A DNA stretch of 64,000 bases, taken from contig NZ_JARXLA010000008.1 of assembly GCF_029872155.1 (NCBI RefSeq), positions 126,501 through 190,500 of the forward strand. The letters are read 5' to 3'. The translations under genes and the position numbers were made by a program. Under the pieces are notes generated by a model. The model made no database searches. It was not told where the DNA came from and saw nothing but the letters and a program-made list of their open reading frames with translations. This document shows, piece by piece, positions 31,283 to 34,053 of this stretch. This DNA comes from Hyphomicrobium sp. D-2 (GTDB lineage Bacteria; Pseudomonadota; Alphaproteobacteria; Rhizobiales; Hyphomicrobiaceae). The number at the start of each line of letters is the position of its first letter. The first letter of the stretch is position 1.

Positions 31283-33181
31283 ATGTTCTTCAAACGCTTC
31301 ATGCCAGGCAAGGGCAAGGCTGTCGCGCAGGCGACCGAAACGGACGCTGATGCGCAGAGCGGCGACGCGTCGGCATCGGCCGTGACGGATTCGCCGGCAG
31401 TCTCCAGCTCGTCAGCAACGCCCGCCAATCGCGCAAGCACAACTGAATCTGCCGCCGCAACAAAATCCAGCACGAAGCTGTGGGCCAGAAAGACCACCAA
31501 GGTCAGCAGCATGCCGATCCGGGCAATCGATGCCGCAGAGTTGGGCTTCAATACCACCGCTGAACTGACGCCATCGCCTGCTCCGGTCGGGCAGGAAAAA
31601 GCGCTTGAAGCGCTGACCTTCGCCGCCAGCATGAAGGGCTCCGGCTACCACATCCTTGTCACCGGTGAGGAAGGCAGCGGCCGCCGCACCGCAACGCGCA
31701 CCATCCTGCGCAGCGTGGCCGCCGATCTGGAGCGACCGGCTGACTGGGCCTACGTCAACGCTTTCGATTCCGAAGGTGGTTTTCGCGCGCTGAAGCTGCC
31801 AACTGGCACAGCCAAGCTGCTCGCACAGAAGATGGCGCTGGCGGTTGATCAACTTGCCGAGGCGCTGCCGGCCGCGTTTGCCGCCGATGATTATGATCTC
31901 AAGCGCCGCATGATCGAGGAAGAGCACCGCTTCCGCCGCGAGGATGCACTGCAAGCCCTGCAGCAGGAAGCCGAAGCACAGAACATCGCTTTGTTGCGCA
32001 CGCCAGCAGGCATTGCCGTCGCACCGATCCTCGAAGGCAAGGTTGTGAAGACGGACGTCTTCAACGCCATACCGGAGGCGATGCAGCGCGAAGTCGAGAC
32101 CAAGATCGCCACCGTTGAAGCAGAACTGGCAAAAATCGTCGGCGAGCAGCCTGAAGCGGAGGAAGAACGTAGCGCACAGATCGATGCATTAACGGCCGAG
32201 ATCGCCGGACGACATGTGCAAGCCGCGCTCGAAAAAGTGCACGCCGACTTCGCCGAGATCGATGCTGTTACGGATTATCTCGAAGCTGCGGGCCGCGACA
32301 TGATTAGCAATGCCGGTCTGTTCGTCGCGCACGCGGAAGCAAGTGATGCCGGCAGCGCAGGCCTGACATCGCAGCGCGAAAATGGAAGCGTTCGGCTGGT
32401 GCAATCGGCAGCGGCACATCCGCGTTTTGCGCGTTATGGCGTGCATGTCATGGCTGCGCCCCTGCGCAACGGTGGCGCCCCGATCGCTGAAGAGACAAAC
32501 CCAAGCTATTCGAACCTGTTTGGACGCGTTGAGCTTGCCCATGACAGCGATGGCCAGCAGCGCATCGTGCGTATTCGGCCCGGTGCGCTGCATAAAGCCA
32601 ATGGCGGCTTTCTTTTGCTTGAGGCCGATGCTCTGCTGAGCGCAGGCGCTGCGGTGGCCTCGTTGCTGCGCGCGCTTGAAACATCGGAAATCCGCTTCGA
32701 TCCACCAACCGATCCTGTCGGCATCGTCGGCGACGAAATCCCGGCGCTGGAACCTGTGCCGCTCAATGTGAAGCTGGTGCTGATTGCCAGCGATGCCGCT
32801 TTAAAACAGCTGAAGGCCAGCTATCCGGCCCTGATGCGCGCGTTCAAATCACGGGCGCCGTTTGCAGCCACCGTTGCAAAGTCGACTGAAAGCATCGCGA
32901 AGTTTGCGGGCCTCGTGGCGTACATCGTGGAGAAACACGATCTGCGGCCGTTCAACGCCGAAGCTGTCGCCATGCTGATAAACGAGGCGGTGCAACGGGC
33001 GGCCGATCCCGGTTTGCTTGCGCTGCCGGTCTCCGACCTGGTTGATTTGTGTCGCGCCGCTGACCATTGGGCAGACAACGAAGATCGCAAAACTGTGTCA
33101 GCGGATGATGTGGCGCACGCTTTGCAGCACTTCTACGGTGACGACGCCACTGAACACGAAACGCGCCGGGCAATGCCATGA
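31283..33181 (+). CDS. Lon-related (YcbZ/LonB-like) AAA ATPase lacking the Lon protease domain (632 aa)
   Basis: After a Ser/Thr/Ala-rich N-terminus (about 1-70) comes the Lon-related AAA module: LGFNTTAELTPSPAPVGQEK, ATP-loop ILVTGEEGSGRRTATRTIL (the Arg-for-Lys form), helical insert RRMIEEEHRFRREDALQALQ, LHKANGGFLLLEADALLSAG as Walker B region, and lid LINEAVQRAADPG. Normal family members of about 800 aa end with a Ser-Lys Lon protease domain; here the protein stops at ETRRAMP right after the lid and no protease motif follows in any frame. The stop TGA overlaps the next start (ATGA). A chaperone-like or regulatory role is inferred. Confidence 0.7.
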   Translation: MFFKRFMPGKGKAVAQATETDADAQSGDASASAVTDSPAVSSSSATPANRASTTESAAATKSSTKLWARKTTKVSSMPIRAIDAAELGFNTTAELTPSPAPVGQEKALEALTFAASMKGSGYHILVTGEEGSGRRTATRTILRSVAADLERPADWAYVNAFDSEGGFRALKLPTGTAKLLAQKMALAVDQLAEALPAAFAADDYDLKRRMIEEEHRFRREDALQALQQEAEAQNIALLRTPAGIAVAPILEGKVVKTDVFNAIPEAMQREVETKIATVEAELAKIVGEQPEAEEERSAQIDALTAEIAGRHVQAALEKVHADFAEIDAVTDYLEAAGRDMISNAGLFVAHAEASDAGSAGLTSQRENGSVRLVQSAAAHPRFARYGVHVMAAPLRNGGAPIAEETNPSYSNLFGRVELAHDSDGQQRIVRIRPGALHKANGGFLLLEADALLSAGAAVASLLRALETSEIRFDPPTDPVGIVGDEIPALEPVPLNVKLVLIASDAALKQLKASYPALMRAFKSRAPFAATVAKSTESIAKFAGLVAYIVEKHDLRPFNAEAVAMLINEAVQRAADPGLLALPVSDLVDLCRAADHWADNEDRKTVSADDVAHALQHFYGDDATEHETRRAMP

Positions 33182-34053
33182 TTGCGCATGTTGCCGCCGC
33201 TGGAGAACGCAGCGGACGCGTTGTGCTTTGGCATGGCGGATCACCCACGGTCAGCCGCTTCGCCATTGATGCGGCCATGGTGCTGGGCAAGACGTTTCAG
33301 GCCGAAGTTGAAAGCCTCTATGTCGAGGATCAGCAGCTTTTCGACCTCGCGGAATTTCCATTCGCGCGCACGATCAGCATGTCTGGAGGCGATTGGGAAC
33401 CGCTGCCGGTGGAAACGCTTGAGCGCAAGATGCGTGCACTCGCGGCAGCACTGCATCAACAGGTGGCGGAAGCCGCCGGCACCGCCGGTCTGCCGTGTCA
33501 GTCGCGCGTGATGCGCGATGATCCGTTGCGCGCGCTTTCGCTTGCGTGCGCGATGAACGGCCCCTGGAATGTCATTGCTGTGTGCGAGCCATTAACTGCC
33601 GGCGACAACACGCGGCTGGCAAATCTCTTCGAGCAGGTGCGCGACACCACCGGCGTCATCGTTGCCGGACCGCTGGTACGCCGTTCGGAAGGGCCCGTGG
33701 TTGCCGTGGTCGAAGAGTTCTATCGGCTAGGCCCAATGCTAAAAACCGCACTTCGCATCTCGGAAACGAATGACAATGAGGTGCGGCTTTGCGTTGTCGG
33801 CAGCGTTGCAGATGAACTTGGATGGATGGAAGCGGAAGCGCGCATACTTTGCGGCGATCCAGAGTTTGAAAGCCGCGTGAGCGTTGAAAGCGTGCTTGCC
33901 GCCAACGACGATCCTGCGCCGCTTCTAAACATGCTGCGGGTGTACAAGCCCGGGCTGGCGCTGGCGCAGTACGGCGGCCGACTGATTGCACCGGAAGCCA
34001 GCTTACGCCCTCTCACGCGCCAGTTGGAATGCCCGCTGCTATTGGTGCGATAA
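33178..34053 (+). CDS. Usp-like alpha/beta protein coupled to the AAA ATPase (291 aa)
   Basis: The opening half resembles a universal-stress-protein Rossmann fold: IDAAMVLGKTFQAEVESLYV, then a variable segment with helix ERKMRALAAALHQQVAEAAG, and CAMNGPWNVIAVCEP and VIVAGPLVRRSEGPVVAVVE strands. The second half may be a degenerate repeat of the same fold (LECPLLLVR at the end, as in Usp tandem proteins). No clear ATP loop GxxG-S/T seen. Its ATG shares ATGA with the stop of the truncated Lon-like gene, indicating fixed stoichiometry. No named family recognised. Confidence 0.55.
   Translation: MIAHVAAAGERSGRVVLWHGGSPTVSRFAIDAAMVLGKTFQAEVESLYVEDQQLFDLAEFPFARTISMSGGDWEPLPVETLERKMRALAAALHQQVAEAAGTAGLPCQSRVMRDDPLRALSLACAMNGPWNVIAVCEPLTAGDNTRLANLFEQVRDTTGVIVAGPLVRRSEGPVVAVVEEFYRLGPMLKTALRISETNDNEVRLCVVGSVADELGWMEAEARILCGDPEFESRVSVESVLAANDDPAPLLNMLRVYKPGLALAQYGGRLIAPEASLRPLTRQLECPLLLVR

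Follow-up and report, generated by a model that had tools for sequence, protein, structure and literature searches.

A Lon-type AAA gene that stops directly after its AAA lid and overlaps a gene for a Usp-like protein raises the question of what a Lon body does when it carries no protease, and whether its partner has replaced the protease or accompanied it. We addressed this question for one such pair in the window (the whole 64,000-nucleotide stretch analysed here, from contig NZ_JARXLA010000008.1 of Hyphomicrobium sp. D-2). An initial annotation had placed the pair correctly, at 31283-34053; its two genes lie at 31283-33181 and 33178-34053, and the locus contains the following features.

31283..33181, + strand: protease-less LonC-type protein (pseudo-LonC), 632 aa (Pfam; sequence and fold matches to MtaLonC)
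31283..31513, + strand: MFFKR start and low-confidence linker, residues 1-77 (pLDDT <50)
31664..31690, + strand: degenerate Walker A GEEGSGRRT, residues 128-136, with Lys replaced by Arg (sequence, alignment)
31808..32353, + strand: helical insertion, residues 176-357, comprising helices and one beta hairpin (235-250; model secondary structure)
32588..32629, + strand: Walker-B-like stretch LHKANGGFLLLEAD, residues 436-449, at the position of GYLILDA in MtaLonC
32948..33127, + strand: AAA lid, residues 556-615 (Pfam LonB_AAA-LID)
33178..33181, + strand: ATGA stop/start overlap (sequence; a 4-base overlap in 30/30 protease-less loci)
33178..34053, + strand: divergent tandem universal stress protein, 291 aa (AlphaFold2 model, fold match)
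33178..33222, + strand: Usp N-terminal signature MIAHVAAAGERSGRV, with H4, A6, E10, G13 and R14 invariant in the family (77/77 sequences)
33547..33570, + strand: Usp CxxxGPWN signature, residues 124-131 (76/76 sequences with letters there)
33841..33843, + strand: Usp invariant Arg222 (76/76 sequences with letters there)

The open frame of the AAA gene extends further 5', and the MFFKR start at 31283 fits the starts of many relatives. Above the Pfam cut-offs the protein matched AAA_32 (residues 398-527), LonB_AAA-LID (556-615) and LonC_helical (154-185); in an NCBIfam scan neither it nor its Usp partner passed the cut-off. A sequence search of the PDB placed MtaLonC chains nearest (E 1.2e-19), followed by LonB of Thermococcus onnurineus, and Foldseek matched the structure model (50 sequences, from an alignment that took in 49 of 79 loci; mean pLDDT 78, with residues 1-77 low) to LonC 8k8v (E 2.5e-27). 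Among the best 80 of 234 relatives, the nearest named record was Hyphomicrobium sulfonivorans S1 (L032; 88% identity), and no second AAA_32 match was found in the window's genome. The initial annotation had read the module as Lon-type with a helical insert, which holds, and as belonging to the YcbZ/LonB type, which gives way to LonC because MtaLonC is the nearest structure.

We then compared the protein with known Lon-like systems. It shares the AAA fold and lid of LonB (T. onnurineus 3k1j), a membrane-bound ATP-dependent protease (PMC9569914), but lacks the protease domain, and its Walker A is degenerate. BrxL of BREX, compared by description only, is a Lon-like AAA+ protein that the accessible text of PMC10164562 presents as an ATP-dependent factor binding DNA in a system for defence against phages and does not describe as a protease; the window protein differs in its degenerate Walker A. 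With LonC (Meiothermus taiwanensis MtaLonC and Thermus TTC1975; MEROPS S16.007), of which MtaLonC is its best match in both sequence and fold, it shares the pseudo-AAA core, helical insertion and lid. Unlike LonC, however, it ends 17 residues past the lid without the C-terminal Ser-Lys protease domain, and the insertion CX3GLX(G/E), specific to the LonC protease domain (PMC3391209), is absent along with the whole domain. It also lacks the Walker A lysine, GEEGSGRRT departing from the GxxxxGK[ST] of AAA+ ATPases, and is paired with a tandem Usp, MtaLonC and TTC1975 having been compared as proteins and not as gene neighbourhoods. Judged by its sequence, the AAA module is thus LonC-type with a degenerate Walker A. 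Since the protein descends from LonC and has no protease domain, the fitting name for it is LonC-derived pseudoenzyme and not LonC protease.

The missing protease domain had been annotated correctly, as the partner gene begins inside the AAA stop codon and leaves no room for it. Two Lon_C matches occur elsewhere in the window's genome, and both lie in genes that we take to be LonA-type from their motifs PKDGPSAG and GPPGVGKT; no LonC-type protease domain was found elsewhere in this genome. A split gene with its protease domain encoded elsewhere is therefore ruled out for the window's genome. A frameshift or an assembly error, the former already discounted by the annotation, is ruled out by the same architecture in 8/8 genomes of the genus. 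The LonA-type genes would serve a reading in which pseudo-LonC and Usp form an adaptor for LonA or another protease acting in trans, gathering its substrates or withholding them; in full-length LonC, this body is joined directly to a protease domain. We consider this improbable, however, given that the genome offers no LonC-type protease domain elsewhere and that we know of no docking element for LonA. As a separate observation, one of the lonA-type genes (L191; C2 near 372607) runs across three frames with two apparent frameshifts, reflecting either assembly errors or a decaying lonA-type copy; the second (L192) occupies one long frame.

The partner had been described as Usp-like, and its fold bears this out. 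Its AlphaFold2 model (11 sequences, pLDDT 77, pTM 0.71; residues 1-11 below 50 in pLDDT) has two alpha/beta halves, and Foldseek against the PDB returned tandem Usps on top, with TTHA0350 first (E 1.8e-12, TM 0.62/0.68) and YdaA/UspE and Rv2623 among the others; cation-chloride cotransporters also appeared further down the list. A PDB sequence search gave no match, and the Pfam scan of the window's partner gave nothing above cut-off, PF00582 remaining unmatched. Among eight other partners scanned, one passed the PF00582 cut-off of 24 bits (the distant L060, 28.8 bits), three scored below it (L049, 22.0; L033, 14.9; L082, 11.4 bits) and four had no match. The Usp ATP-binding motif is GxxGx9G[ST], which is not universal among Usps. 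It was found in 0/77 partner sequences of the family, which differ from the tandem Usps in this respect, in adjoining LonC and in carrying a signature of their own (HVA...GRV, CxxxGPWN and R222). Synonymous codons vary at nine of the invariant residues in a codon tally, indicating that selection acts on the protein, and the signature is invariant in protease-bearing and domain-less loci alike. The full signature was found neither in partners from other families (L021, L024, L027, L035 and L039, of which L024 retains GRV) nor in those of a further alignment. On its modelled fold, the partner belongs to the tandem universal stress proteins, as a divergent member that lacks the usual ATP motif.

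To place the locus among its relatives, we used 103 genomes of the family, in which the AAA protein was matched in 87, the partner in 84, both in 83 and neither in 15. The four genomes with the AAA protein only end at contig ends (G033, G079) or hold partial matches (G103, G111), and in the single genome with Usp only (G024) the contig opens with a LonC protease domain lying just ahead of usp. Neither gene was matched in g23 (6/6), g15, g2, g16, g24, G014, G061, G063 and G122 (g numbers are internal genus codes), and several of these 15 genomes are nearly complete. From the 87 genomes with a match, 80 loci were read, with partner matches in 77; G071, G076, G094, G099, G103, G111 and G124 were unread, being partial, cut or split by contigs, or of low completeness.

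The 80 loci comprised 43 LonC proteases with motifs, 30 domain-less forms, four with a domain lacking the dyad, and three cut or broken. Counted by length, 48 loci had at least 100 residues past the lid, 30 had no protease domain and two were cut by contig ends before the domain (L138, L146); L136 enters a broken frame at a contig end. GDSAS and the catalytic-lysine motif occurred together in 43 of the 48, and the LonC insertion CX3GLX[GE] was exact in 34 of these 43 full-length relatives, which thus have LonC-type protease motifs and mostly the LonC insertion. In G027, G067 and the two g5 genomes (G011, G034) the domain is present and the alignment shows both Ser and Lys replaced, G067 having GESAS a few residues off the dyad position. 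The 30 domain-less loci are those of all eight genomes of the window's genus (g1), 20 of g10 (22 genomes matched; G094 and G099 unread), G028 (g22) and G023 (g17).

Both kinds occupy the same locus, since an mmcB-like gene lies divergently upstream in 70/80 (29/30 domain-less, 41/50 others). Six of the ten loci without it have <700 bases upstream and four (three of g20, and G081) have >2 kb; regA was upstream in 50 loci, on the usp side in five (g25) and not seen in 25. The annotated ATGA overlap was confirmed, a 4-base overlap (ATGA or GTGA) being kept in 30/30 protease-less loci, compared with 37/47 others with a partner read. The sequences show that relatives carry at this locus a full LonC protease gene overlapping the tandem Usp gene; the window's genus has retained the two proteins and the 4-base overlap but neither the protease domain nor the Walker A lysine. 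The initial annotation had held that a full protease domain at this locus in close relatives would count against its proposal; such domains exist in other genera of the family and in none of the genomes of the genus, which makes the protease-less form a derived one, not a separate ancient kind.

The Walker A lysine followed the protease domain closely, occurring in 0/30 domain-less loci and in 43 of the 47 scorable domain-bearing loci (the 48th, L166, has no Walker A region). The four exceptions were G123 (dyad intact), G067 and both g5 genomes; G107 and G108 kept the lysine with the adjacent glycine altered. This pattern suggests that nucleotide binding serves proteolysis. In G027 the lysine persists although the protease is dead, which means that the losses did not always follow one order. 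Partly dead sites in full-length LonCs (L154, L164, L165, L174, L176) fall into three types, namely Walker A only (G123), protease only (G027) and both (G067 and g5), and are possible intermediate stages of the same decay.

These counts also bear on the annotated identity of a substrate-remodelling ATPase, which is unlikely. An ATP-driven remodelling chaperone with a Usp cofactor would fit the retained AAA-like fold and the recurrence of the pair. Against it, the Walker A lysine is gone in all 30 domain-less loci and, according to PMC3391209, MtaLonC lacks the Walker B catalytic Glu, the stretch reading GYLILDA, and neither MtaLonC nor TTC1975 had ATPase activity, so that we regard this chaperone as very improbable. 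By analogy with MtaLonC, which bound ATP-gamma-S without hydrolysing it (PMC3391209), nucleotide binding by pseudo-LonC may remain compatible with these losses.

We next asked how often proteolysis was lost. In G027 (g21), G067 (g25) and G028 (g22) it was lost in single genomes whose genera also hold intact copies. The Usp tree placed the three with their own genera (SH-aLRT 100, 95 and 99, respectively) and needed four changes, of which starred branches force at least two. A tree of rpoB (48 rows, with eight g10 genomes; g5 absent, and G028 omitted because its rpoB is a 144-aa fragment) agreed for G027 (100/100) and G067 (99/91) and needed three changes for g1, g10 and g17. The AAA tree has long branches, needs two changes (one forced) and puts neither G028 with g22 nor G067 with g25; our conclusions are not based on it. 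The initial annotation had asked whether protease-less forms make up a clade. The form holds throughout the genus (8/8); beyond it, g10 fell beside the protease-bearing g13 in the rpoB tree (98/95), and an AU test on rpoB did not reject a single domain-less clade (p 0.239). G028 argues against a single domain loss overall, but one loss may suffice for g1, g10 and g17. Together, the gene phylogenies point to proteolysis having been lost in separate events in G027, G067 and G028.

The pair itself extends well beyond the family. Of 385 evenly drawn alphaproteobacterial genomes, 136 had an AAA_32 match and 63 a partner match; of the 66 partner matches, 56 followed an AAA_32 match in the same orientation at a distance of up to 2 kb, confirming the conservation that the annotation had anticipated. 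Of these 56 partners, 55 start 1047-1170 bases past the AAA_32 match, a distance that could hold a protease domain; the sole exception is the partner in the window, at 315 bases. The pair was present in 56/136 AAA_32 genomes, the majority being without it, and seven genomes had a partner match with none adjoining AAA_32. Among 79 best loci (234 relatives, 80 kept), the partner lay directly behind LonC in ten (L032-L036, L039, L044, L049, L060 and L082). Pairs outside Alphaproteobacteria (L060, L044, L049 and L082, from a Balneolaceae MAG and gammaproteobacterial records) reflect either an old pairing or transfer. The LonC-Usp pairing is old, and with full-length pairs this widespread, the Usp is unlikely to have come in place of a protease, as had been proposed; to judge from these loci, the partner most likely preceded protease loss. 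Listings from searches of the open-access literature showed no report of LonC or LonB genes accompanied by a Usp, and we found no description there of a tandem Usp coupled in this way, of nucleotide and protease residues being lost jointly, or of their recurrence.

Both genes appear to remain constrained where the protease is gone. Across seven protease-less pairs, dN/dS (NG86) was 0.135, 0.116, 0.397, 0.138, 0.113, 0.036 and 0.078 for the AAA gene and 0.072, 0.132, 0.247, 0.119, 0.096, 0.070 and 0.071 for usp, the first values being those of the window's own pair. Six of the seven fall within 0.04-0.14 and 0.07-0.13, respectively; in the outlier (G004/G007), dS is about 0.1. With YN00, the AAA pair of the window came out at 0.163, and several others had no estimate. 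Three protease-bearing pairs had values of 0.059, 0.117 and 0.064 for lonC and 0.080, 0.185 and 0.127 for usp. By these ratios, both genes look to be under purifying selection in protease-less loci.

Identity was also compared in 20-residue blocks (eight rows for g1, 20 for g10 and 45 for protease-bearing loci), where only the pattern along the protein counts because the groups differ in depth. Block 240-259 was the most conserved in g1 and g10 (mean pairwise identity 0.93 and 0.84); it was also among the top two up to residue 619 in protease-bearing loci (0.78), so its conservation is not special to domain-less forms. Within g1 and g10, identity exceeded that of the protease-bearing loci in blocks 200-279 (e.g., 260-279: 0.76 and 0.77 vs 0.53) and fell below it in blocks 420-439 and 520-539 (520-539: 0.48 and 0.44 vs 0.71).

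These data also bear on a reading in which the AAA gene is a relic leader, kept only so that usp is translated through it, while Usp works and the LonC body decays. LonC has decayed in several lineages while usp persists, the overlap is found in 30/30 domain-less loci, and nothing aligns to the lid in four g10 loci, all of which agree with such a leader. A mere leader, however, sits poorly with frames that stay open for 505-767 codons in each of the 30 domain-less loci and with a dN/dS of the AAA gene about equal to that of usp, and we consider it unlikely. The strong divergence of the AAA sequences of g10, g17, G028 and g5, together with the lid-less g10 loci, fits erosion as well as a scaffold.

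We give about an even chance to the reading that this locus is a LonC-tandem-Usp operon whose LonC has turned pseudoenzyme, a non-proteolytic and probably non-ATPase body holding the Usp partner. The full-length LonC-Usp form would be ancestral, and removing the protease domain from a non-motor LonC body would leave a chamber or scaffold whose pseudo-AAA core and helical insertion may still oligomerise. Such a scaffold, neither proteolytic nor ATP-driven, would bind the Usp partner and perhaps also client proteins, the gene overlap would let the two be made in step, and the unit would act as a sequestering or signalling platform instead of a degradation or unfolding machine. The likeliest docking surface would be the helical insertion, and the likeliest working site the Usp's invariant N-terminal tail with the CxxxGPWN/R222 residues. 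Overlapping genes can also mean expression coupling alone, without contact between the LonC body and Usp. A partner with an invariant site that stays coupled through several losses of proteolysis suggests that the unit's role needs no proteolysis and, as far as the sequences go, that the pair has a job other than protein degradation.

Going beyond this pseudoenzyme reading, we tentatively propose that tandem Usps of a new class, caged or scaffolded by the LonC body, read a ligand or redox signal, with the protease as an optional, droppable output module. Sensing might then, equally tentatively, involve the invariant site formed by H4, E10, R14, C124, W130, N131 and R222. It is conceivable in this case, at a similarly modest probability, that LonC pseudoenzymes arise repeatedly in this family because the operon's true function lies elsewhere than in proteolysis.

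The LonC members studied so far are ATP-independent proteases, and a Usp partner that recurs with overlapping genes suggests that a regulator or effector has gone unrecognised. The domain-less forms are natural separation-of-function alleles, and setting them against the full-length operons of related bacteria asks directly which functions the LonC body and Usp have besides proteolysis. The locus also illustrates, at the level of sequence, how pseudoenzymes have evolved repeatedly among Lon proteins.

Finally, most LonCs of the family, with and without the protease domain, open with an aromatic-basic N-terminal motif (MFFKR, MIFGLGKK, MAFWKS or MVFWR) followed by a disordered linker. A loose version of this pattern, which may in part arise by chance, occurs in the first 260 residues of 71/80 open frames, and the aromatic-basic start is possibly a membrane or partner anchor.
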